Shown piece after piece: positions 1 to 16,311 of a DNA stretch of 64,000 nt. This DNA comes from Gautieria morchelliformis (lineage: Eukaryota; Basidiomycota; Agaricomycetes; Gomphales; Gomphaceae). The position numbers and the translations under genes are program-made. The notes under the pieces are model-generated. The model saw only the letters and a program-made list of their open reading frames with translations. It was not told the origin of the DNA and made no database searches. The DNA is taken from the NCBI GenBank assembly GCA_015179125.1, contig WHVA01000018.1, positions 124,001-188,000 of the forward strand, written 5' to 3'. Every line of letters starts with the position of its first letter. Positions within the stretch are counted from its first letter, which is position 1.

Positions 1-2702
1 CGCGCATGGTACGTTGCGTCATGAAATAGTGTGATGGCACCTAGATTGTCTGATCGAAGTGATGTGGGCTGGGTTTGATCTATTCCTAGCTCCTCGATGA
101 AGCGCCTCAGCCAGATCAATTGCTTGGCGCCCTCGGTGAGTGCCATGTATTCGGCCTCCGTAGTAGATAACGCGATCGTTCGCTGCTTCTTTGAGCTCCA
201 TGCAATGGCTCCCCCTCCTAGTATAGCTACATAGCCACTAATAGACAGTGCGTCGTTTCCATTAGCATAATCCAAATCAATGAATATTTCGAGGTTAAGA
301 CCAGTGTCTTGTCGGATGGTTATGCCGTCATCACGTGACCCCTTGAGGTACCTGAGTGCGTGCTTGATCACCGTCCAGTGCTCGGCTCCATAAGTAGTAG
401 TGAATTGCCTTAAGTGTTGTATGGTAAAAGCCAAATCAGGTCGTGTGCTGAGTGCCGCATACATTAACGATCCAATTGCTTTAGCATAGGGTACTTCAGT
501 AGTTGGACCCGTTGAGTCCATAGGCGTTGTGAGCTTGATTATTTTGTGTAGAGGTGTAGATATGGAATGAGCCATCGCCATGTTGAATCGATCGAGTATG
601 ATGTCGATGTAATGTCCTTGGGACATAGTCAGCGTTCCCTCATCCCTATTCCTTTCAACCCTAATTCCCAAGATTTTCATCATTTTTCCTAAATCTGTCA
701 AAGGGAATTTTCCATGAAGCTCCCCCTTGAGCTTAACCATCCCTCCTTTGGAATCAGCAAATAGTCCGAAGTCGTCCACATATACTGATATGACTTCGAT
801 TGAGTCCTTATCTTGTCTGATATAGACGCATTCATCGGCTGTGCTTTGGTGGAAGCCGAGATCGAGTAGTAATTTGCGTAAGCGCTGATGCCAAGCTCGT
901 CCCGATTGCTTGAGTCCGTAGAGCGCTCTGTATATTCTTAGAACACGTCCAGATCCATCATCAAAACCGTTGGGCTGGCGCATGTAGATTTCCTCATCTA
1001 TGGTTGAATTGAGATAGGCGCCTTTGACATCCATCATTTCGATTTCCCAATCGAGTGTGTTTGCGATGGCTAATAGAACACGTAGTGAATCGAACTTGAC
1101 CACAGGTGAAGTTATTTCATAATAATCCATCCCTGGCCTCTGTGTGAATCCCTGAGCCACAACCCTCGCTTTGGCTTTATCAAATTGTCCATCCGGTTGC
1201 GTTTTGACAGTGTATACCCATCGGCAACCGATAGCTACTCATCCAGGTGGTAGTTCTGTTAATTCCCATGTTCCTAGCGTCTTATGTTGGTCCATTTCAA
1301 TTTCCATCGCTTTCTCCCAGATCGGCGCATCATCACGTGATACCGCCGCTCTGTAATTCTCAGGTTCAGTAACGATTTCTCTCGTTATGTAAACCTGCTT
1401 GGTGCATCCTGAATCATTCAGATTCCGGTAATCTGGCCTTTGAGTGATGTGCATGCTCTGTCGAATCTGTGGAGCTGGCGCTTGTTCAGGTGGATCAGGG
1501 GTGGGCATCATCTGGGGTGATGACGTCTGCGGGGTAGATAGGATTGGGTCCGGCACATGCTCATGCGGTGAGTGCTCCCCCTTGAGTGGTGCCGTGTCGT
1601 CATCGTCTTTATCTGGGATAGGATAGAGTCTATTGTTGTTTTCGTCAAATGTAATGTTTCTATAAATTTGAACATGTTTTGAGGCTTTATTGTAATACCT
1701 CCAGGTTTTTGCATGTTCAGCTACTCTGATGAATATGTGTTCTTCTGCCTTTGGATCAAGTTTAGCTCAACGTTGATCCGGCACCATAACCCAACAGTTT
1801 GTCCCAAATTCCTCTAGATGTGCTATGTTCGGGTTCTTGCTGAATAGTGCCTGGAATGGCATTGCGTCATCTCCAAGCGCTCGCGTGGGTGATTGATTTT
1901 TGATATAACACGCGTAAGCCACGGCCTCGGGCCAGAGTATTTTTGGCAGGTTCTTGGCGAATATCATCACCCATGTGTGCTCGAGTAAGGTCCGGTTGAG
2001 TCGTTCTGCAATTCCATTCTGGGCTGGGGAGTATGGAGCTGTGGTCTCCATGATAATGCCATGTCTTGCACAAAATTCTTTGAAATTTGTATTGACATAT
2101 TCCCTGCCGTTGTCTGAGCAAAGCCTCTTCAGCTTCTGACCTGTTTGGGTCTCGAGAAATGCTTTGTATGTTTTGAAGTGCCTGAGCGCTTCATCTTTGG
2201 TGCTCCCGAAATAGATTACAGTGTAGCTCGATTTGATGTCCGTGAAAGAATAAAAGTATTTTTCACGTGACGGTCCCTCGGTCTGGGCAGGCCCCCATAC
2301 ATCGGATACTGTTAGGTCACTGACCTGATCAACAGTGTCCTCGGCTCTTTTGGGGAACGGCTCCACATGCCGTTTGCCTTGTATGCAAGCTTTGCACTGA
2401 CTCAGCTCCTTTGACTCGTCGATCTCGAGTCCAGTAACTAGGTTGTTAGATTTCAACATTTTTATAGAATTTATGTTGACATGCCCGAGTATCCTGTGCC
2501 ATTTGTCCCATGACCATCCCTTTGCCACTGCAGCAAAATCCCGTGCCTCGACTGATCGGGTGACCCATGCCTTCATACAGAATAGCCTCCCGTGCTTCTG
2601 TCCCTGTGCAAAAATAACTCTGGCACGTGATTTGAATTCGACACCGGTGCCTGTAAATGTGGCCATGTTGCCCTTATCAGTTAGACGCCCAACACTGATA
2701 AG
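1..2702 (-). mobile_element. Fossil Ty1/Copia retrotransposon (family A), 3' part, cut by window start
   Basis: Read on the minus strand, this stretch gives in order an integrase (about 2700-1767), a linker, then Copia-type reverse transcriptase and RNase H running off the window start. The order integrase before reverse transcriptase defines Copia. The reading is broken in several places, so it is a fossil. Its protein is closely similar to the plus-strand Copia piece at 23.6-25.3 kb, so both belong to one family. The matching 5' part of this element appears to be the piece at 4134-5528, now in the opposite orientation because of an inversion. The 3' LTR would lie outside the window. Confidence 0.9.
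1767..2702 (-). pseudogene. Copia family A integrase region (GAG-pre-integrase plus rve core)
   Basis: The reading contains the GAG-pre-integrase zinc-binding pattern (WHRILGHVN, then CKACIQGK) followed by integrase core landmarks such as DNGREY and NGIAERLNRTLLEH. These are typical of Copia integrases, which insert the cDNA copy into the genome. The open stretch starts exactly where the solo LTR at 2703 was inserted. It is part of the fossil element above and is not a host gene. Confidence 0.88.
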
Positions 2703-3975
2703 TGTCATGACGTGTTTATTTCCCATACTTGCATACTCTATGCTCCCATTTCTGACTCCATTTCTGTGTTCGCTCCGATCGCCCTTGCCCTGTTCGGCAA
2801 CTGATTTTTGCTGTTTGTACCACTCACCGTAGCCACACCATCAACGCATGATCGACGCCTTTGGACCGACCTGGTGGTTCATCACTGGTCCTATCACCTC
2901 CGCTGCTCAACCCTCTTTCGATGGTGTTCCTATGATCAGATTGTCAGGACTTGTGTATTTCCTGCACCTTGGTATCCCTGTCTCCCCTTTTGCCATACCT
3001 CCTCCACCTTTGCTCGGCTTCACCCCTCACTTCAACCACTCCTACCCTATGTCCTCTCCGTTCGCCCTTCGTTGCATTCGCCGAACAGCCATTCGCTGCT
3101 CACATCATTCGCCAGCAGGCAGGCCATCAAATACGAATCAATACCATTTACCCGGCGTGATGGTTCATCATTAACCCCATCATCTTCTTAATCCAACCCC
3201 TTTGGGTGTTCATATGGCCAAAGTGTGTTTGCAGGACATCCCTTTCATAGGTCATGCGGGATCAACCCAGTAGACGAAGAGTCCGTGCAGGGTAGCATGT
3301 ATGCAGGTCCCAAGACATGGTTTTGTCCATAAGTGCCTTCGCCACCTTTACTCTCTGTCGTTTCATGTTCGCACTCTTCCCTCACTCTATTGTATGTTTA
3401 TTCCATCTACTTAGTATCATGACTGCGCACCCCTATCCAACCCTGACTCACGACGGCCTCTTTCCTATTCGCTGATACCTTACGAGCATTCAATATAAGT
3501 AGTTTGCATTCGCATGTACATTCCTCAGTTCAATTATCATATGTCGTCCACCTTGTGCAAACTTGACCTCACTGTGATCATCGTTTTTGAGCCTTCTCCT
3601 GGAGATTTCTATCTTCGACCAGAAGAGGACTTAGGCATCACTGGTGAGTTCTCATACTTCATCTTTGTTACCTTAGCCTTCAAACTATTTTCAGTGCTGA
3701 CGGTGAAGGGCTCTGAAGGAGCACCTTCGCCAGCGAAGGGATTGTTGCTACTTAGACAACCCTTCCGTGGCACCTTGCACGTTACATTGTCAAGTGTCAC
3801 GGGCTATTTCGCTACGACTGTAGATAGGGCGAGCTCTGCTCAGGCAGCCCTTTTATCTTGTGAACATTTATTGGTTCACCTATTCGCCGAACGGCATACT
3901 TATTCGCACAAGTCATTCGGGCATTCACTGTGTTCACTAATACATGATATTAATGCCTAAAAACCAATCTTGACA
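2703..3975 (+). repeat. Solo LTR copy L1 (TGTCA...TGACA family, about 1.27 kb)
   Basis: The element begins TGTCATGACG and ends CCAATCTTGACA, giving 5-bp terminal inverted repeats TGTCA/TGACA in an LTR-like TG...CA frame. The same sequence occurs at 5529-6530 (inverted), 39444-40647 (inverted) and 55011-56285 (direct). No internal coding region goes with any copy, so all four are solo LTRs. The 5-bp flanks here do not match each other (ATAAG left, CATAC right). They match, reverse-complemented, the flanks of copy L2. Confidence 0.85.
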
Positions 3976-4133
3976 CATACCTCATCTCCTTTTCGGGTAA
4001 TTTTACGATGTGTTCTCGGTGTTTACAGTGAGGAATTTTTGACGATCTTGAGTGCACACCCATTCCCTGCAGGTCCTTTTCCTGTTACCGTCCCGTGGGA
4101 ACTGTCTTGTATAGGTGTGGATCCTGGTGTTCA
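3976..4133 (+). pseudogene. Fragment of Helitron-like N-terminal gene (inverted piece)
   Basis: The plus-strand reading contains ILRCVLGVYSEEFL and FPVTVPWELSC, matching the segment with LCVLAKYGDDFL and LPVTDPWELGC of the minus-strand gene at 7652-9013. It is therefore a fragment of the second, diverged copy of that gene, the rest of which lies at 6531-7000 on the minus strand. It ends exactly at the start of the Copia LTR at 4134, so it marks the insertion site of family A. Confidence 0.7.
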
Positions 4134-4356
4134 TGTTAGTAATTGGGACGATGATACGGCCGAGGTAGAGCCGGCACGCATTTAGCCGGGAGTTCGAGAA
4201 CACTCTTGACTCCAGGATACTGGTGCACTGGCATGGCATCGGCACAGCATCAGCTCGAAGGGTCAGTAATATAGGAACATCATATTTAGTATATAAGGAT
4301 GGATGATCTTGTGTAGATCGTAGAACAACAACTTATTATAACTCCTTTGTTCCACA
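4134..4356 (+). repeat. LTR of Copia family A (223 bp)
   Basis: Starts TGTTAGTAAT and ends GTTCCACA, immediately followed by a primer-binding site. The same LTR, somewhat diverged, occurs at 25346-25505 plus 40859-40939, where it is split by the Helitron array. It contains a TATA-like stretch (TTTAGTATATAAGG) near 4287-4300. It is the 5' LTR of the element whose gag part follows. Confidence 0.88.
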
Positions 4357-4372
4357 GGTTATGGGCCCCGGC
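4357..4372 (+). promoter_or_regulatory. Primer-binding site, half-tRNA type
   Basis: GGTTATGGGCCC directly follows the LTR. It is complementary to GGGCCCATAACC, the usual anticodon stem-loop sequence of eukaryotic initiator tRNA-Met. Copia-type elements such as Drosophila copia are known to prime from an internal half of this tRNA. The same site follows the family B LTR end at 20887. Confidence 0.8.
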
Positions 4373-4446
4373 CATAACTAAATTACTACAAGACCTAGCT
4401 TATCCCAAATACACTCTATACTCCACCAACTCAATACCAATCGACA

Positions 4447-5528
4447 ATGTCGAGTAGCAATCACACGTACAAGATTGACCCCTTGAATGGGGATAATTAC
4501 GCGGCATGGCGCCGGCGGCTCGAGTGGATACTCGATGATTTGGATCTGTGGGACGTGGCTATCAGCAGGGAGACGGAACCGAGACTGGCAGATGCTGGCA
4601 ACATCACTGCGACCGAACAGCAGGAAATCGACAATTGGAGAAGGAAGGACAAAAAAGCTAGAAAAAGAATTTGCCTCAGAGTCGCCGATGAACAACTAGT
4701 TTACATCAATCAGACGATGTCTGCATTTGCTGTATGGGCTAGTTTACAAGCAATATTCGAATCTAAGGGAGCCGTGGGGATTGTAAATCTAAGTGATTTC
4801 TTCCGGATGCTTGCCGAGGACGGTGCGAACATGGAGGAGTACGTATGCAAGCTCTGCGGCATTCAACAGGAACTCAATGCGTGGGGACATTACATCAGTG
4901 ACACCAAGTTCTCGAACACGTTGCTGACATCATTACCAGATTCTTGATCGGTGTTTATTACGGCAGTAAACACCAGTGGAGCCGGAACAACAGCTGATAT
5001 ATTAATAGCTCAAGTCCTCGATGAGGATCGAGCACAGAAAGCCGGATCAGCACGACAGACAGTGCTTAAGGCGCAGCAACATCACAGGCCCAGGAAAGAT
5101 GACTCAGGAGCAACAAAGGGAAAGTGCCGGAATTGTGGCAAACAGGGTCATTACATGAAGGACTGCTGGGCAAAAGGTGGCAGCAAGGAAGGCCAAGCAC
5201 CGAAGTGGTTCAAGTCAGGGAACAAAGAGACAGTTAAACAAGCAGAAGAAAAGGACTTCGTGTTTGTATCTAAAGAGGTAGCATACAGCGCTATATCTGT
5301 GTCCGACTGGCTAGCCAATTCAGCGGCAACAACACACATAGCTCGAAGCTGAAATGATTTCGCTAGCTATGCCGAGGAGCCATCAGAAATTGAAGGAATT
5401 TCACCTGGAGCAGTACTACATACACAAGGCCGAGGCACTATATACATGGAATTCAAAGTCGGCACCAAGACGAACACAATCAAGCTACGTGATGTCAAGC
5501 ATGCATCGGATGTGCTGAACAACCTTAT
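4447..5528 (+). pseudogene. Copia family A gag-protease part
   Basis: The reading begins MSSSNHTYKIDPLNGDNYAAW, typical of Copia gag in agaricomycetes (it binds and packages the element RNA). A retroviral zinc knuckle, CRNCGKQGHYMKDCW, lies near 5131-5175, followed by the start of the protease region. It stops at 5528 at the edge of solo LTR L2. It is a fossil with a few breaks. The rest of the same element appears to be 1-2702 on the other strand. Confidence 0.88.
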
Positions 5529-6530
5529 TGTCAAGATTGGTTTTTAGGTGTTAATATCGTGTATTAGTGAACACAGCAAATGCCTGAATGACTTGTGCAA
5601 ATTAGTATGCCGTTCGGCGAATAGGTGAACCAATAAATGTTCACAAGATAAGAGGGCTGCCCAAGCAGAGCTTGCCCTATCTACAGCCATAGCGAAATAG
5701 TCCGTGGCACTTGACGATATAACATGCAAGGTGTCATGGAAGGGTTGTCTAAGTAGCGACAATCCCTTCGCCATCAGCACAGAAAATAGTTCGAAGGCTA
5801 AAGTAACGAAGATGAAGTATGAGAACTCACCAGTAATGCCTAAGTCCTCTTCTGGTCGAAGATAGAAATCTCCAGGAGAAGGCTCAAAAACGATGATCAC
5901 AGTGGGGTCAAGTTTGCACAATATGGACGACGTATGATAATTGAACTGAGGAATGTACATGTGAATGCAAACTACTTATATTGAATGCTCGTAAGGTATC
6001 AGCGAATAGGAAAGAGGCCGTCGTGAGTCAGGGTTAGATAGGGGTGCGCAGTCATGATACTAAGTAGATGGAATAAACATACAATAGAGTGAGGGAAGGG
6101 TGCGAACATGAAACGACAGAGAGTAAAGGTGGCGAAGGCACTTATGGACAAAACCATGTCTTGGGACCTGCATACATGCTACCCTGCACGGACTCTTCGT
6201 CTACTGGGTTGATCCCGCATGACCTATGGAAGGGACGTCCTGCAAACACACTTTGGCCATACGAACACCCAAAGGGGTTGGATTAAGAAGATGATGGGGT
6301 TAATGATGAACCATCATGCCAGGTAAATGGTATCGATCATATTTGATGGCGTGCCTGCTGGCGAACTGCGCGAGCAGCGAATAGCGGTTTGGAGAATGGG
6401 GCGAACAGCGGGTAGAGTGGACGTAGAGGGGGAGTGGTCGGAGGGTGCGGCGAACTCTGGCGAAGATGCTAGGGAGTGACGAGGGGGAACATAGAGACAG
6501 TGGGGTAAGAGAAATAGACAGGTCATGACA
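5529..6530 (-). repeat. Solo LTR copy L2 (inverted, shortened)
   Basis: Inverted copy of L1. It begins TGTCAAGATTGG and ends CATGACA on the plus strand. At 1002 bp it is about 270 bp shorter than L1. Its flanks CTTAT and GTATG are not a matching pair but complement those of L1, as expected after an inversion. Confidence 0.85.
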
Positions 6531-7407
6531 GTATGCATGAGGGAAGATGACGCCAATGCTGGTGAAATGCACTGCATGCATCGAAAGCGAAGTGCGGCCA
6601 AAGACGCAGTTTCAAAAAAGACTGAATCATCGCGGAAAGTGGATAGTATACACTCAACCAATGTCAGTTTAGGTTGACAGTCTGTAGAAGATATGGAAAT
6701 ACCAAGGCGTGAACACAGAGATAACAAAAACAACCAGGTATGAAGTAAAAGGTGTGACTTACTTATAAGGTGATCGTAATGAGGACACCAATATGGAACT
6801 ACAGGTGAGGGAGAGATGGTAGGACACATTGAGGACAACATGGAAGGTAGCAGCGACATGATGAAGGACGACTGCGACAGAAGCTGTATAATGAGAAAAC
6901 AGCACGGCACAAAACAATGGACAAATCTGAAAGTCAGCGGGCATACAAAGAGGTCAAGAAACACTTACATTTGAGATGCAGTGAGGCAGAAGAGAAGAGT
7001 AAATAGTACAGGGAGGAAAAACCTCAGGAATACAAGACATTTAAAAAGAGGACAGATAAATATAACAATGGGGTGAAAACGGCAAGCCGAGACCGTGATA
7101 TTGATGAGATTAGCAAAAAGGTACACAGGAAATCATGAGAAACGATCACATTACTATAAGATAGTGAAGGGAAAATAAATCATGGCGTAAGTCGAACATA
7201 AATCAGGACGAGATAATGATGGCAATATACAGGGGCACAGACAACCAATGAAATCATTCGAACATGAGCGGGATATTAAAATGGATTGCAGGGAAAATAA
7301 AAAAAAAAGGAAAAGACGTTAATACATCATAATCTTCGCAGGCACCTCAAGATCCTGATGAGGTTGTGTCAACAGAACCCTCCCCTCCTTTCAGTCAGAG
7401 TCGGGGA
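6531..7407 (-). pseudogene. Helitron-like element, 5' region and N-terminal gene (second copy)
   Basis: Minus-strand readings near 6860-6531 contain VVPYWCPHYDHLI and KLTLVECILSTFRDDSVFFE, parallel to VLPYWCSPPYEIL and KINIVHCIVLCFREDCNFFE in the gene at 7652-9013. The downstream part is at 3976-4133 after the inversion. About 400 bp upstream of the first recognisable coding segment lies a 47-bp motif (7361-7407) nearly identical to one upstream of the other copy. The copy seems to have inserted into the coding region of its neighbour, since that gene's reading stops near 7440. It is decayed. Confidence 0.65.
7361..7407 (-). repeat. 47-bp conserved motif, possible 5' end of Helitron-like copies (copy 1)
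   Basis: Differs from 9543-9589 at only two positions, although the sequences around them are strongly diverged. On the minus strand it begins TCCCCGACT and folds as CTCCCC...GGGGAG. It lies about 400 bp upstream of each N-terminal gene copy. An initial TC preceded by A would suit a Helitron 5' terminus, but a conserved promoter is also possible. Confidence 0.5.
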
Positions 7408-7429
7408 TAATTCATAAACAATCGGGTAT

Positions 7430-9105
7430 ATTTATGACTCTTAAACAATTGGTTACATTTATGATTACATTTATACTGGTACATGTCAAGTGATCCAATC
7501 TGCGTTGTCCAACAAAAACAACACTAAGCATCCCATTCAAATCCGCCGGAGAATGTGGAAGTGAGTCCGCAATGGATATGACATTCATGCCATGAGCACA
7601 AGTATTCCTGTGTAAAACGCGAGGTTGTGCAGGATCACCTGAATCATACAGTCATGTAACATGCGCAGTGATACGATAAAGGGAACAAACCATCTCTTCA
7701 ACCCAAGTCAAGTCGATAAACTCGTCAGGTAATTGACCCCGATACTGCTGATTCTTAAAAGCGAAACGCGGAACTTTGCCAACCTTCAACGAAGAGTGGC
7801 AATTGGGGCACAGGGATATGTTCATGGATCCATCTGGAAGACGTTGAGTACCATCACGGTGGATCATAAGGCCATTGATCACCTCGTCATCGAACATGAA
7901 CTCATTAGAACACGTTTGAACAATGCAACATGTAATAATGAACGGATAAGTCAGCCGTAGGAGCTCTAAATTGCACGGGGCAAGTAATCCATGTGTAGTG
8001 ATGAAATCAAAGGTGCGCGAAGAAGACCTTCGTCCACAAGAAGCACACATGGGAGGTGGGGACCAGGTTGTGACGTTGTAATAATCATGACAGCAGGAAA
8101 GGATCATATTGTTAGGAATAACCTTAGGCCAACCAGCCAGGTCAGCAGCAGCAGAGCGAACAGTGGAGTCATCCAGTTTTCGAAGTTTGCGTTCGGTTCG
8201 GAGAACTTTAGTTCTTGCATGGTCACGTAGTGCTGAAGGTCTGAACATCTCTGTGATGAAATCAGTAGAATAGACAGAGTTCAGCAAGAAGACGAGCTTA
8301 TCATGACGAGAAACAGGCACCGACTGATCAGGAAATGACAGGTGCACGTCAGCAAGAATGTCCTCAGTGACAACCAACTCAAGCTTACAGCAACAAGCAC
8401 GGAAGTGAGGGACAAGAAGTGTTGCGCAGGAAGCACGACTGGGAACCTTAGCACTGACAGAAACCTCTAATTGCGAACACAAGGCTGTCAAAGCAGGCAG
8501 CGGCAACATCTGAACGTTGGTCATCTGAACGATGGGATCCACGAGCATGCAACCCAATTCCCACGGGTCAGTAACAGGAAGCGGACGCACAGAGAAAGGG
8601 AGGGAACACAACAACAACAAAAAATCGTCTCCGTATTTAGCGAGGACGCATAGTAAAACTAAGTGAAAATGCGAGGAGGAATGATCAGCAGATGGGGAAA
8701 GGTGAGAGGGCAATATGTAGTTAGCGCAACGTTGCTGAAGAGAGGTAAGCGACAAGCATTCAAAAAAGTTACAGTCCTCACGAAAACACAATACAATACA
8801 GTGAACAATATTTATCTTGGCACGATGGTCACTAGAAGACAAGGAAAGTTCGAGACTTGATGACAATGACATCAAATCTAAACAGGTACGATCCAACAGA
8901 TGGGATGTGAGGATTTCATAAGGAGGGCTGCACCAATAGGGTAATACAGGAGATGCAACGACAGCAGGACATTGAGACGAGGGTTGGGAGGAATCGGAGA
9001 GTAAAAGGAACATGGAGATGGAGAGCAGTCACTGAGGACGAGTAAGATGGACACAGCACGACACAAAATCAAGGTACAATCGAAGATGTCAGTTACAGCA
9101 CACAA
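7430..9105 (-). pseudogene. Helitron-associated N-terminal protein (DUF6570-like)
   Basis: A 453-residue open reading (9013-7652) starts in a Ser/Leu-rich region. Its C-terminal half carries two zinc-binding clusters, CASCGRRSSSRTFDF and CPNCHSSLKVGKVPRFAF, followed by LPDEFIDLTWVEEMVCSLYRI. This block is typical of the protein region that precedes the Rep and helicase domains in fungal Helitron-like elements (DUF6570 family, by recall). A TGA stop follows AHVT. The same frame then continues with LYDSGDPAQPRVLHRNTCAH up to about 7440, so a sense codon has probably been lost there. Rep and helicase parts are missing. A short upstream ORF at 9105-8878 overlaps and may include an intron. It is a truncated transposon gene and not a host gene. 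Confidence 0.72.
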
Positions 9106-9542
9106 GGAAATACAGAGGACGGAGAAAACTCACCTTAGACACACGCGGGACAAGTCAGGAAAGACGAGGTGCACTGGACAATGTGAATGCACGTTTAAAC
9201 GAGAACAGGTATAAAAGAAGTGGTAATTAGCAAGTGGCGAAAGGGGAAAACGGCATGATGACGCTGGGATAACGAGGGCAAGGGCACAACGGTACCATAC
9301 GATTGGGGTGACCAATGATTAATAAGAACCTGGTGACCAAGGATTATGCAGGACAAGAAAATTCAGGCAAATGGATTATAAACCAGCGGGAGATTATGAT
9401 GGGGGAATACAAAAAGGCTGACACGTGCAAAAACTTAGGAGTATCACAACCGCAATAGGTAACAGATCACGCAGGGAAAAATAAAAAAGGACAAAGTTGA
9501 TCATAAAACATGACCATTACAGGTACAGCAGGAATCCTTTAT

Positions 9543-9589
9543 AGGTTGTGTCGACAGAACCCTCCCCTCCTTTCAGTCGGAGTCGGGGA
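9543..9589 (-). repeat. 47-bp conserved motif, possible 5' end of Helitron-like copies (copy 2)
   Basis: Second copy of the motif at 7361-7407, with 45 of 47 positions identical. It lies about 440 bp upstream (minus strand) of the N-terminal gene at 9105-7652. Confidence 0.5.
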
Positions 9590-10425
9590 GGTACATGGAT
9601 GACCAAATAGGTCTGACAAGTAAGAATATGGTTGCATTTTTTATGTGTGTCATTCATTGTGTGTCCAAATATACCACCTATTTGGACATTTAAAAACCTA
9701 AGTTCATTGTATTCTAAGTGACCCTAAGATAGAAGTCATTTAAATGTGGCACCTTTACATAAGCTCAGGACCATCTGACGGTGAGCTCAATAACACTAGA
9801 AGGCAGGATTCTTTTGCCAAAGTGCTTCCTAGAATCTCTTTGGGTTATGCATAGCTACAGCTTCTAGGAGAGACTTGGGAAATATCTATATTACCAGAGG
9901 AGTTATATGATGTTCAAAGTGAGACATAAGAAAATTCCAAATTATTTTTTCGATGTCTTAGAGTGATTCCATGCAATTTCAGTATTTGGACCAACAGAAT
10001 GGGCGGTCACATGATGGATTTGTCAGCTTTGAAGGCTCGAAGTAAAAAACATTGCACTGCCACTCCAGGGCTCTTCCTATGTAAGAGAGTGGATCTTAAT
10101 GTCACAATTCCACCACAAAAACACTATTCACTTCACAAAAACATTATTCACTTCACCTCATACAACCCCCTCCACCCGCAATACGTCCACTCCCATCATC
10201 CCTCCGATTACCCCTTGATCCCACACACATAATGGTAAGGCCAACTTACGTGACAACACCCGCTACCGGCTTTAAGTGCAGCTTAATGCTGAGACCTATG
10301 ATGGTCAAAATGCACAAATATTATTTTGCAGGTGCGCGATGAATTGAAGTGGGACTGCGCGCAACTGGGTATGTGCCAATATGGCTGGCTATGGGTGGTT
10401 ATAGGCCACCGGTGACAAATACTTA
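9590..10425. other. Gene-free stretch with one perfect hairpin
   Basis: No coding reading is convincing here. A perfect 10-bp inverted repeat with a 7-nt loop lies at 9662-9688 (TGTCCAAATA / TATTTGGACA). At 10116-10160 a short phrase ending CTATTCACTTCAC is nearly duplicated in tandem. The part at 10290-10422 is related in inverted orientation to 11050-11170. Confidence 0.5.
10290..10422 (+). repeat. Diverged inverted repeat arm flanking the MITE (left)
   Basis: Shared phrases such as GGTCAAAATGCACA, CTGGGTATGTGCCAA and ATGGGTGGTTATAGGCCA recur, diverged and on the opposite strand, at 11050-11170. The pair flanks the CACTA-type MITE. The family is not recognised. Confidence 0.5.
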
Positions 10426-10809
10426 CACTAGGTGCAAGCCACTGTTTGTTTACCATAACCTATGGCAACAAATAGTGAAAAAGGAGGAAATCTTGTAATA
10501 ATTTGAAACTATGGCTAATGGTGAAGAAGCCTTTCTTTTTGTTTACAATTTAAAACATCAAGAAAATCTGAATAAACACAGATGAACACTTATAAGAAAT
10601 AAATTGTGACAAAATAAATCATATTCACTGCATAAGATGCAAGAAATTATTATTTGCCTTTATTCAGATTTCCTTGATGCCTTAAATTGTGAAAAAAAAG
10701 GAAGAATTCTTCATCATTTGCCATAGTTTCAAACCATTACCAGATTTCCTCTTTTGTCACTATTTGTTGCTGTGGGTTATGGTAAACAAACAGTGACTTG
10801 CACCTCATG
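10426..10809. mobile_element. CACTA-type MITE, copy 1 (384 bp)
   Basis: Begins CACTAGGTGCAAG and ends with its imperfect complement (CTTGCACCTCATG). The arms pair over about 160 bp, so the element is nearly a complete foldback. It is flanked by the 3-bp duplication TTA (10423-10425 and 10810-10812). CACTA-starting inverted repeats with a 3-bp duplication fit the CACTA (EnSpm) superfamily. It has no coding capacity. A second copy is at 41096-41488. Confidence 0.82.
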
Positions 10810-11049
10810 TTAAGGGTTCAACTTGCGCCTTCAGCCTTTCAACATTCATCTTCAAAGCATGAGTGGCCAGCCTTCCTCTCCCCATTTCATATACGCTCCT
10901 CAGCCTCCTTGTGTGGATTACTGAGATCCACAACCTTGCAAGCCCTTATATCCTCCAGCACTGTACCTCTATAGATGACAAGATAGAATGGTAATGTGAG
11001 GCTCTGACTGGTGCTCGGCAGGTCGTGCGCCATGCCAACATGGCAAGCA

Positions 11050-11170
11050 AGGACCTGAAGTATTTTTCACCCATGGCCTACAACCAACCATAGCCACCCA
11101 TGTTGGCACATACCCAGGTACGCGGGGTTCCATTTTAGTCACATGTGCCCAATGTGCATTTTGACCGTCT
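11050..11170 (-). repeat. Diverged inverted repeat arm flanking the MITE (right)
   Basis: Counterpart of 10290-10422 on the opposite strand, sharing CTGGGTATGTGCCAA on the minus strand (CTGGGTATGTG seen as CACATACCCAG on plus). A 90-residue reading on the minus strand here looks incidental. Confidence 0.45.
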
Positions 11171-11525
11171 GTATACCAGCCACGGCTGTTAATTTTCTGG
11201 GGCAAGTATGCTTGACGCCAGTTGATCTGCACTCTGATCAAGTGACTTCAAGTATTCTTTAAGTAAGTATAGGCAATAGCAACACATGGCATTAGGGTTT
11301 TTAATGTGACATTGGCATCTAATGAAGGGTAGTAGCTAGCATAGGGGTGAATCAAGATAAAGCAAGTATGCCAAAGCACTAAGCAGCAATTGGGACGAGT
11401 GTAATACAAGAAAATGTAGCTAGACTGATGTTTTAAGGAATGGTTTCGAGTGCCATCACCAAGAGATGTGAAGGTTTACACTGGAGATGGTTCTAGGAAT
11501 GTTTTCATAAATAATCACATATTAC

Positions 11526-12830
11526 ATGGTACGGCAAGGACTCATGACATTGCATTTCTATGTCAGTCGAGCCAGCCCGATCAAAGGGCTCGTTGACAAT
11601 AGAGTCCTCTTCAATGGCCTTTTTCTTCTTCTTGTTGCTTCAAGGGGTGATTGGTTGGGAAATGGCAGGCTTGAGCATCTTATCTTCGACTGCCTTCCTT
11701 TTCTGAGGTGTGGTAGGTGTTGGCGGCAAGGAAACAGTATTTTCAACTGTAGACTTCATGGGTTCTGAGACGGCTTGTATCTTGTTGACCAATATTTGGT
11801 ATGTGCGACTTGGCTTGCAATCAGTTTTTATAGCAGTCATGTCCCAGCTTGACTGTTGACAGGACAAGAATCCAATAAGATAAATATAGTGCTTACAACA
11901 TCAATTTGCAGTCATCAACAACCCATGTTCCAGGCATAAACACCGTTTTGTAGTCTTTAGGGTGCACATACTCTCCATCAATGTCCATGGCATTGATGTC
12001 AGTGTTGATGCACCATCTGAGAATATGTTTGAGTTGAGACCAGCGCTCGTGTGGATCATCCCATTCGTTCAGAGGCAGTTTAGCTGTGAGTGACACATTA
12101 GTACCAGCTCTGACGTGAGTTATTTGTGTACTTACCACCACCTGCTGCATTTTTCCCAGTAACTGGAGGATGCGGCACTGTAATTCAGAGAGGAAATGCA
12201 GACACTAGAAGTGCACTCACACAAATTTATAGCAGACTGCTTCGATGGTCTGTCCTCTATAAGCATGCGATCTGTCGACATTATTATTTGTAGCCTGTTA
12301 TCAATAGCACAAACAAAGGAGTGGATATCATATGGCTTTGGCCCCATGGCCTCTGTCATTAGGTGAGTTGTTGTCCTTGATGCTTAGAACAAACAACACA
12401 GAACAGCTTACCGTACTCTGTAGATGTGTATTCAGGATCTCCTTTTTTCACTTTCTCGATGTTTGAGAGATTTAGGCACTGGTGGTTGAGGAGCTCTGTC
12501 TGCCACTTCATTAGGATATTTGGATGTGTGAAACTCTAAGGTAAACTTGAAACGGGATCCTTTGATCCTCTCAGAACCATCATAAAACTAGTATGATGTT
12601 AGTATGTCAGTCATGACTGTGAATCAATAAACTGCTAAGCTTACCACACTTGCTGGTGTGTCTTTGAGCGACCCATAAGCGCTGATGGTACTGGTTGGAC
12701 CAATTGGGACAACAAGTTGGACTTGAAGTTCCCTTGACCCTGTTTTATCAGCCCAGCGGCCATTCACGTTATTGAGTTTGAAGGGCTGAAAAACAAAGTC
12801 AGTCACTGGACGTTTTATGAGCAAGGCCTC
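11526..12830 (-). pseudogene. Unrecognised ORF pieces downstream of the Helitron-like helicase
   Basis: Three to four short minus-strand readings follow one another: 12824-12624, 12359-12132, 12150-11893 and 11867-11640. The clearest stretch contains THVRAGTNVSLTAKLPLNEW, then DDPHERWSQLKHIL. A later piece is Ser/Thr/Pro-rich with TPTTPQKRKAVEDK. They could be exons of a second protein of the Helitron-like element (some Helitrons carry a single-strand binding protein) or of a captured host gene. I do not recognise the family. Order and strand match the helicase gene upstream. Confidence 0.35.
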
Positions 12831-13472
12831 GGGTCATTTCGAAGTTCCTGTAGGAATGATAAAAGATCATCGTCGATAGTGATAGTGGTCATTTAGTGAG
12901 TTGGTCTGGTTGAAAGTTGAAAGAGTGGGGTGCAATGATGTCGGTACAACTTCTTGCCAGGTCTTTTATATGTTTTCTGATGTAGTATCCAGGTCATTGC
13001 CTTAGGAGATCTGTGGCAGATACTCACATTCATTTAGTCGGTTGGCCGTCAGTGTTTGAGGTAAATTGCTGTCGTTTAAGCCGTCATTTGTCAGCATCAC
13101 AGGTTGAATTTCTTAGTGGCATTTCAGATTCTCTTTCATCACAAACATTGGTGTTGGTACCATGTTCATGTTCAGCCAATATCTTGTCATTACAACATGC
13201 ACTGTATTCCACTCTTGCAGGAATAAAGTCTCTTGCGTGTTTGATATGTCCACTTTTACTGGTACCTAAGGGGCTCAGGCTTTTTTTTATAGGTAAGCAA
13301 CATTCACCTGTAACATCTGATGGACGAGTATTGATTGCCTTTCAGGGGCAGTAAATTTTAATGATGTGTGGATATGCAACCAGGTAAGCCGTTCAATTTC
13401 TAATTGCACTTGTTTGAATGATTCAGTTGTATGCCCTGTAATCTTTTTTAGCTTGGAATGGGTGTAGGACAA
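12830..13472. other. No recognisable gene
   Basis: Short readings exist on both strands (for example 13013-13354 plus, 13472-13287 minus), but none shows a domain or repeat. It probably forms the 3' part of the decayed Helitron-like element on the minus strand. Confidence 0.4.
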
Positions 13473-15287
13473 TTAGTCCATCAGGCATGTAGAATGGGAG
13501 ACCATGACATATGCTGACTGCAGTGTTTTACTATGTTCAATATCCAGAATAACCTTTGGCAGAGTTCTTCCCTGAGCCTTATAGTCAGTCATAGCAAACA
13601 CAGGTAAGATCGGGAGTTGTTTTCGATGAAATGACATCTTTTTCTTTGTATATGGATTGATGAACTCAATTTTCACAGAGTCTTCCATCACAACGACTTC
13701 ATTCTTTTCCAAGAATGGTAATGGTTCGCATGGGCAATGACTAACAATTACTACACAGGACTTGGCATGCTTTTTGCCCACTTTGTCAACTTTGTATCTT
13801 ATTGATTTAAGTATGCCTTCAGTTCCGTTGACCATGCCACCAACAACATCATAGTTTTGGCAAATTATGACGGGCATTCCTTCTACTAATGGTAAGTGGC
13901 CCATTTGTTGGCCTGTCTTTCCTGTACTCAAATCTAACAGCATATTTTTTAGCTGAGTGTCCATAATAGGTTTATTCTGATGTGTGTCCTTTGCGAAATA
14001 ATATACTGACTGTTTTTTGTGTTGCACAGCAAAGTGTACTGCAGCTCTTTGGTTTAAGGCATCTTTTGTGGCATTGTTGCATGTTATAATGGGAGCTTTC
14101 TCCCACTCAGGTGAGCTAATATCAGTATTTCTGTTGCTTAACTTACTTATGAGAGTTTAATAGTTTAATGTCTTCATTGGTGCATTTCTTCAACCATAAA
14201 TGTGTGAGCAGGTCACGAAACGGTTTGTTCAGACTGCCAGATTGATGCATTTGCTGATGCAGTATAATAACTTCATTTACTCCTAACCACAGCAAGCGAC
14301 CTGCAGCCTTCTTTTGACCTTGAGTTGTTTGGGAAGCTGAGTTTTTCGCATCAGAATGATTAATATCCATGCAGAGATTGGTGCCGGCAACTGGTGCAAG
14401 CTGACAAAAATAAATCTCTGGCAAAAATCACATTGATGCCACCGACGTCTTGAGTATTTTGCTTTGCTATGCCAAGTGCATTACTGATGTCAACAAGCAA
14501 TTCACAACTTATCGTAGAGATTTCATCAATGAAGAGATAGTCTACTCCTTGCCACGTTGCTACTAGATCCATTTTTGTGTCAGTAATGTGTGATCGCTTG
14601 TTGTAAATAACCTATGTATCCATGTATGTATACTAGTTATTACCTAATCCCAGTGGGCCCCTTAGGGACCCACTGTATAGTTTATGTGTGGGAACCAGTC
14701 AGCGGTCCCCATTGCATCTTACCCTTACCTGTCACTACATAGCATCCAGAATACCACTCATTGGTCAAGTTCTGTCTGCCCTTGTGATACAAGGCTTTAA
14801 GATCGACATCTTTACACCTGTTCAACTGTGACAGAGCTAATGCGGCATGCAGGGTCATACCACGAATATTATATGCTGCCACTCCTGTATATGATGCCAG
14901 ATGAAACTGCCATGTTTGCCTAGTTTCTGCAAAAAAACAGCTGAGTGCATCTATTATGTGGGACTTCCCTGTTCCACCAGGGCCACCAACCTCTGTATTA
15001 TGTGGTTTTGCAGTATGTTCTGCAACAATTCTAAATGCTTGAGCTTGCTCTTCATTCAGGGTAAACCTTGCTATAAATGTATCAATTGACTCCTGTGCAA
15101 TTACAGTCGTGTGTGTGTCTTGTGTATGGATCTGGATGGATCTGCTCAAACCATTGTTGGTCGTGATAGCACTCAATGGCTTAATCAGTATGCCTGTACT
15201 TGATTCAGTTATATCTATTGATTTGAGGGATTTCTTCCATGTATCATTGCGATCTTTGTATGCCTTGCACCATATGCAAGGTACCAT
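13473..15287 (-). pseudogene. Helitron-like Pif1-family helicase, decayed
   Basis: Read from 15287 downward: Walker A region NEEQAQAFRIV ... GGPGGTGKS (about 14980), then SYTGVAAYNIRGMTLHAALAL. After an interruption come Walker B YLFIDEIS (about 14540) and a C-terminal part with FAMTDYKAQGRTL (13600) and the end near 13473. These are the motifs of Pif1-type 5'-3' DNA helicases, which Helitrons use to unwind donor DNA. The gene is in pieces: a 215-bp repeat sits between the Walker A and Walker B parts, and several frame breaks occur around 14.0-14.6 kb. The original protein must have continued from the Rep-like part at 15.5-16.3 kb. Confidence 0.82.
14602..14816 (-). repeat. Short interspersed repeat, TGTAAA...TTTACA termini (copy 1, 215 bp)
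   Basis: Inserted between the Walker A and Walker B parts of the helicase gene. The termini are TGTAAAT (plus strand, left) and TTTACA (right). The flanks CTTGT and CCTGT could be an imperfect 5-bp duplication. The interior contains a strong hairpin around GTGGGCCCCTTAGGGACCCAC. A second copy at 54679-54890 is about 85-90% similar by eye. The class (MITE or miniature LTR-type element) is unresolved. Confidence 0.7.
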
Positions 15288-15489
15288 GGCCTTGAGCCTC
15301 TACACATCCGTAATAACCTTTAACCAAACCAAGAAATCCACCTTCTAAATTTTTACCTTATTTATCATAGCCTAGCATGCAGGATAGGAAAACTTTTAGA
15401 TATACATTAAAATTTTTTGCTGCAATGAAAGGGTTTTTCGCTCTAAGTATTGCCTGCTCCCAATAGTCAGGAACTTGTTCAGGTAGTAG

Positions 15490-16311
15490 TTAATCAATGT
15501 CAATGTCGGATCCTGCCAAGAACTTAACGATTGGGTTGAAAACATTGGCAGGATTGATAGTGATATAAAAACTAGGAAGGCCATGATCCATCGTCATGCC
15601 TTGAATTTCATTCTGCATTGCAGTCCTCACAGCTGCAGTTCCAGGCACTTGAGATGTCACAAGAGATACTTCCCGCATCAGTTTGAGCACAGTTTTTTCT
15701 TCATCAGTGTGTGTACTAGCACACTCTCCACGAGAAATTCTTTCCAGTACAGTATGGATTGCAGCTTCAGATACATTGGCTATGTCAGTGGAAAATTGTT
15801 GAAATGCAGCTCTGGATACACTCAATTTAGCATGTAAGCTAACCGCACGCCTTTGAAGTATATTAAACACTGTGAAAAGAAAAGAGTAGTGTTCTTGAAA
15901 CCGGTCAGTAAGTGAGAAAAAATGTTCAGCTTGTGTTTTCATAGCTAGTGGAACATGTCTGTCATGAAGCTCAAAGCCACCTAGACCATACGGAAAAAAA
16001 GTAGGATACAACAAAGGGAATTAACATTCATCCTCATATTCATTGGATGCATGTGGCCCATGTCTAATTTGAACAAAACCTCCACCATTTCTCAGATGCC
16101 TCAATGCTTCAGCAGCCATCTCATTAGAAGATACGTCCCTGCCCTTGAGATCTGTAACAACAACACTTTCAAAAATGCTGTGGTGAGAAGGTGCATCCGT
16201 GGATGCTGGAGGGGTGAAGTCATACCTAGAACGCTGAACTTGGTTTGCAGTATTGGGATCTTGCATTGTGATATCGACAGGTGCTATCTGTTCAAGGAGC
16301 ATATTATTCAA
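15490..16311 (-). pseudogene. Helitron-like Rep N-terminal region (Helitron_like_N)
   Basis: The readings 16311-16021 and 16014-15490 lie next to each other. The second begins LYPTFFPYGLGGFE and includes RFQEHYSFLFTVFNILQRRA and GLPSFYITINPANVFNPIVK, typical of the Helitron helicase-like N-terminal domain (Pfam Helitron_like_N by recall) that precedes the catalytic HUH/tyrosine part. The first piece, with LRHLRNGGGFVQIRHG, normally lies just upstream. The catalytic HUH and double-tyrosine motifs that should follow were not seen in the stretch down to 15287. Confidence 0.75.

Follow-up and report, generated by a model that had tools for sequence, protein, structure and literature searches.

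The closest described counterpart of the locus analysed here is inversion 2z3 of Drosophila buzzatii, which was generated by the element Galileo and is described as having opposite copies of the element at its breakpoints, exchanged target duplications and chimeric element copies (PMC2775673). By its title and abstract opening, a plant study deals with LTRs that undergo conversion and recombine ectopically, and with solo LTR formation (PMC7251063). The word 'inversion' is counted 0 times in the plant study, whereas the case presented here is an inversion.

In Gautieria morchelliformis, two solo LTRs named L1 and L2 share with 2z3 the involvement of one mobile element, two opposite copies at the breakpoints and swapped target duplications; the single target at each uninverted breakpoint of 2z3 has its counterpart here too, and its chimeric copies with a located switch have a probable one (PMC2775673). 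Opposite copies and exchanged duplications were found at L1/L2, and the uninverted relatives show either single targets or, for L1 in the C316 copy, a matching duplication. As for chimerism, the mosaic nature of L1 is supported and a reciprocal exchange of 3' parts is favoured, although the unexchanged tree is not rejected (AU 0.114). While 2z3 is a chromosomal inversion produced by a DNA transposon and compared between lines (PMC2775673), L1 and L2 are solo LTRs around a 1.55-kb segment, the uninverted reference comes from another copy of the region within this genome, and an additional conversion-like tract is present. Among the papers listed in literature searches, no title or abstract opening described a solo-LTR inversion with these marks, and we make no claim of priority. 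The mechanism is thus already known, given that the marks of 2z3 are alike; the record left at L1/L2 is unusually complete and very well documented.

The locus lies in a stretch of 64,000 nucleotides (the window; C204:124001-188000), and the genome searched comprised 122 Mb in 1113 contigs. Both LTRs start with TGTCA and end with TGACA, and their boundaries read ATAAG-L1-CATAC and CTTAT-L2-GTATG. Read in LTR orientation, the flanks are ATAAG/CATAC for L1 and CATAC/ATAAG for L2, so that each LTR matches its own second flank at 1/5 bases, whereas the crossed flanks match at 5/5 for both. The swap of target duplications between two solo LTRs proposed in the earlier note is therefore exact, with coordinates correct to the base. 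Among 12 LTR copies (L1, L2 and 10 further ones whose two ends were readable), exactly crossed flanks occurred in 1/66 pairs, that of L1 and L2; six of the other 10 copies had an exact 5-bp duplication of their own, three had one at 4/5 and one a doubtful match at 3/5. The TG...CA ends and the 5-bp duplication round a single LTR, exact for L1 in the second copy of the locus on contig C316, are those of solo LTRs. The inverted arms of L1 and L2 show 97% complementarity over 574 nt and 91% over 243 nt. Because the duplications are crossed, both breakpoints must lie within the LTRs or at their extreme ends.

Table 1. Features of the inverted locus, in window coordinates
Feature	Position	Strand	Evidence or remark
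L1, solo LTR, 1273 bp	2703-3975	+	Sited in Copia element, between zinc knuckle and GAG-pre-integrase; mosaic
L2, solo LTR, 1002 bp, subfamily with divergent 5' end	5529-6530	-	Sited in Helitron-like element
ATAAG on left flank; first copy of L1 target duplication	2698-2702	+	Single ATAAG at empty site in C853, C170
CATAC, now adjoining L1; L2 target duplication copy	3976-3980	+	Single CATAC in C1092
CTTAT (ATAAG on - strand), now adjoining L2; L1 target duplication copy	5524-5528	-	Flank reading
GTATG, L2 outer flank; L2 target duplication copy	6531-6535	+	Flank reading
Inverted segment, 1.55 kb	3976-5528	- (putative original orientation relative to surroundings; gag now reads +)	Opposite orientation in C316:107886-109440
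Segment contents: Helitron-like end	3976-4133		
Segment contents: Copia 5' LTR	~4134-4359		
Segment contents: Copia gag, zinc knuckle, onward frame	then to 5528		
Copia remainder outside inversion	1-2702	-	Pfam integrase at 1767-2702 (part searched in Pfam)
Continuation of 3976-4133 in same repeat (Helitron-like by position)	6531-7409	-	C1092 continuity
L1 tract common to L2 and differing from C316-L1; putative conversion tract	3171-3492 (L1 positions 469-790)	+	Permutations, genome search
Probable crossover zone in L1, last tract site to first exchanged site	3493-3639	+	One contrary site, position 849
L2 counterparts: tract 5982-6303, probable crossover zone 5835-5981	5835-6303	-	

The elements interrupted by the LTRs give an independent reading of orientation. 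Outside the segment, at 1767-2702, Pfam places a Copia integrase (PF00665) and a GAG-pre-integrase domain (PF13976) on the minus strand; inside it, at 4456-5352, a Copia gag (PF14223) and a zinc knuckle (PF00098, at the cut-off) are on the plus strand. In two Copia copies elsewhere in the genome (C853 and C170) both parts are continuous in one orientation, with the single target at the L1 site. In a further repeat copy (C1092) the short Helitron-like fragment is colinear with its continuation, that is, as after flipping, and forms an empty L2 site; in another (C448) the first 31 bp of this fragment are joined to the continuation around a single target with one base changed. The label Helitron-like derives from PF14214 at 15490-16020 and PIF1 at 14682-15299 (Pfam), farther along the window, and is applied to 6531-7409 by position and after an earlier reader. 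Domain strands and all four copies agree that, as had been proposed, both fragments inside the segment are reversed relative to their continuations outside.

Mobile-element sequence is the sole recognised content between the breakpoints. Around the Copia element that holds L1, no clean 5-bp duplication was found in either C204 or C316: the flanks compared, at -410 to -406 (negative numbers lie to the left of the window) and at 4129-4133, read GTTCA versus GCACG in gag orientation. Divergence of this element from C316, obtained by subtraction, was 75/1394 (~5.4%) inside the inversion (4134-5528) versus 122/3028 (~4.0%) outside it (-406 to 2702).

The earlier note had suggested searching for the uninverted order in a relative, and this order was found in a copy within the same genome. 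C316:102407-115976 is colinear with the window from about -1630 to 13768, with some insertions and deletions, and shares all three insertions (Copia, L1 and L2), each at an identical site. Identity to the window is 98.2% left of Copia, 96.6% over -1630 to 2702, 94.7% over the segment, 98.0% over 7507-13768 and 92% in L1. The order in C316 is ATAAG-L1-ATAAG, the segment opposite to its orientation in the window, GTATG, and then 319 bp of the L2 3' end. The perfect duplication predicted from flipping 3976-5528 is thus present on both sides of L1 in an uninverted copy. C316 is without the remainder of L2 and without 6531-7506, so that the right L2 duplication and the middle of L2 are unreadable there. 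At this deletion, C316:109755-109760 corresponds to window 5848-7506, the outer part of L2 and ~1 kb beyond being missing, and the two edges have GTCC in common, which would fit a microhomology-mediated deletion. Since the C204 and C316 copies share the insertions, their ancestor carried all of them and the inversion arose in the C204 line.

The possibility that C316 represents the other haplotype was considered and set aside as the less likely reading. Eukaryotes have three nuclear genes with an Rpb2 domain, and PF00562, which marks it, was matched 10 times across 5 contigs, the match on C371 being weak with 4 stops; from these counts the assembly does not look doubled. Colinearity between C316 and C204 extends over ~15 kb here and its edges are abrupt. 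The remaining matches of the whole C316 (146.6 kb) to C204:64501-208000 sit at different offsets and resemble dispersed repeats. On this evidence a duplicated segment is tentatively preferred to an allele.

We then compared the four LTRs along their length (w_ for the window, c_ for C316). L1 positions convert to window coordinates by adding 2702 and, in the tract and the probable crossover zone, to L2 positions by subtracting 241. Trees (FastTree) had 13 or 14 rows; two partial copies (C204_40k and C316_39k) were aligned and omitted from the trees, and LTR fragments at C204 42169-42795 and C316 10998-11874 (file coordinates) lay outside the alignment. Over positions 1-420, w_L1 pairs with c_L1 (0.868) and w_L2 with C204_37k (1.000); over 511-800, w_L1 pairs with w_L2 (0.940). 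Sites at which w_L1 and w_L2 agree against c_L1 made up 13/17 informative sites in 511-800 versus 9/45 in the rest of 421-1273 (Fisher p 6.6e-5 for an interval picked by eye). When interval choice was corrected for, the excess in the best interval, 469-790, was equalled in 7/5000 permutations. Genome searches, which scored 40 of ~3500 first-look candidates and could therefore miss a closer copy, agreed: with window 3230-3510 as query, L2 was the best non-self match (489 bits), the next copy reached 465 bits, and C316-L1, at 446 bits, ranked in the bottom group of those scored. In the converse search with the C316-L1 tract, again among 40 scored of ~3500, both window LTRs were in the lowest group (446 bits). 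Within 511-800, w_L1 and w_L2 differ at 4/290 sites. A switch of variants within L1 and L2, which the earlier note had proposed to look for, is therefore seen in trees, site patterns and genome search; the exchange was not one clean switch, as L1 and L2 have in common a tract (~469-790) that is absent from C316-L1.

The 3' parts show a further change of partners. Over L1 positions 925-1273, w_L1 pairs with c_L2 (0.936) and w_L2 with c_L1 (0.705). At the ten two-versus-two sites at which all four LTRs are readable, 7 support the exchanged grouping, 3 the unexchanged one (964, 1044 and 1065) and 0 the grouping by contig. In a quartet AU test the exchanged tree scored 0.899, the by-contig tree 0.004 and the unexchanged tree, which was not rejected, 0.114. 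When the L1 3' end was used as query, C316-L2 tied with C499 and C193 as the first non-self match (394 bits; 40 matches scored). The converse query with the L2 3' end was uninformative, neither C316-L1 nor C316-L2 being among the 40 matches scored. A 30-bp stretch is present in w_L1 and missing from c_L1, w_L2 and c_L2, which counts against exchange unless the stretch was lost repeatedly; it is missing from C559 as well. Contrary to a clean exchange, w_L1 and c_L1 also stand together at position 849 against w_L2 and 10 other copies. Judged by the LTR 3' parts alone, a reciprocal 3' exchange between L1 and L2 is likely, with moderate support in the sequences, though not proved.

Taken with the crossed flanks, the uninverted C316 copy and the empty sites in C853, C170, C1092 and C448, which bear out the earlier proposal of one ectopic recombination event between inverted LTRs, the data are best explained by recombination between L1 and L2, to which we assign a probability of roughly 0.92. 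In the sequence of events that we propose, solo LTRs of related subfamilies inserted in opposite orientation ~1.5 kb apart, L1 into Copia (target ATAAG) and L2 into the Helitron-like element (target GTATG). The ~15 kb region then became duplicated, one copy lying in the window (C204) and the other on C316. Later, in the C204 copy, L1 and L2 recombined as inverted repeats: L2, the presumed donor, may have overwritten a central stretch of L1, ~0.3 kb long, by gene conversion, and a crossover immediately 3' of this tract, probably within ~3493-3639, may have resolved the intermediate. The recombination flipped the 1.55-kb segment together with the inner LTR parts, and one copy of each target duplication was swapped between the LTRs. 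The outcome appears, from sequence, to be a structural scar.

The tract also offers a rough date. Over positions 1-420, which are taken to be one insertion by descent, w_L1 and c_L1 differ at 29/420 sites, while over 937-1273 the exchanged pairs differ at 13/307 (w_L1 and c_L2) and 19/296 (w_L2 and c_L1). Since divergence in the tract is below that between C204 and C316, the event would be younger than the split of the two copies, if the tract dates it; on that proviso, and with small counts, it would be about one fifth to one third as old as the split, as a very rough estimate.

We lean towards the conversion tract and the crossover being parts of one event. In the variant that best competes with this, a plain crossover inverted the segment and the L1/L2 tract reflects a separate gene conversion, earlier or later. 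The tract and the exchange are indeed distinct signals, and inverted LTRs 1.5 kb apart can convert at any time; the tract end, however, adjoins the probable crossover zone, which is what a single event would produce, though this is not proof. A separate conversion is thus a tentative alternative, distinctly less likely than a joint one. More doubtful still is the idea that the inverted LTR pair is a repeated flip point, with a segment able to re-switch in living populations and a tract built up over several rounds of pairing. If true, it would also explain the mixed 3' sites (7 exchanged, 3 unexchanged and the contrary 849).

Could the molecule in fact be uninverted, with the segment flipped by the assembler at the inverted LTRs? 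L1 and L2 do form long inverted repeats, identical over one run of 129 bp, and such a place is prone to flips; yet beyond this run exact common runs are at most 73 bp, and there is not a single N in the window or in the loci counted (L001-L016). Moreover, the 4/290 differences between the L1 tract and L2 (511-800) are those of an aged copy, unlike a borrowed read. An assembly error is accordingly very unlikely. Less credible again is an ancestral present order with the inversion in C316 or its ancestor, for which nothing speaks beyond the symmetry of the event: C316 has the perfect L1 duplication, and the empty copies in C853, C170, C1092 and C448 all have the continuity seen in C316. Finally, that two insertions produced the crossed 5-mers by coincidence in a segment never inverted has nothing counted in its favour, a chance of ~1.3e-6 for both matches given the 5-mer composition of the window, and the continuity of both interrupted elements as well as C316 against it, and can be dismissed.

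Recombination between L1 and L2 thus remains the preferred reading. L1-type (1273 bp) and L2-type (1002 bp) LTRs have ~0.8 kb of 3' sequence in common, and their 5' ends align poorly (66% over L1 positions 240-420), which indicates at least two LTR subfamilies. A first-look screen gave 4314 candidate copies of the family; the genome match lists for L1 and L2, with 40 candidates scored for each, are lower bounds. At three other places (C183:150144-152614, C462:50841-53331 and C260:361088-363028) LTRs of the same family face opposite ways, their starts abutting or at most 15 bp apart; these pairs may reflect insertion into LTR ends or additional rearrangements.

These results indicate that a single assembly suffices to demonstrate, polarise and roughly date an old rearrangement, by means of its target duplications, of the elements nested there and of the second copy of the locus. 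A scan for crossed duplications among the solo LTRs of such a genome would directly count LTR-mediated inversions, and the tract beside the exchange may serve as a natural gauge of how long a conversion tract runs when an ectopic crossover takes place.
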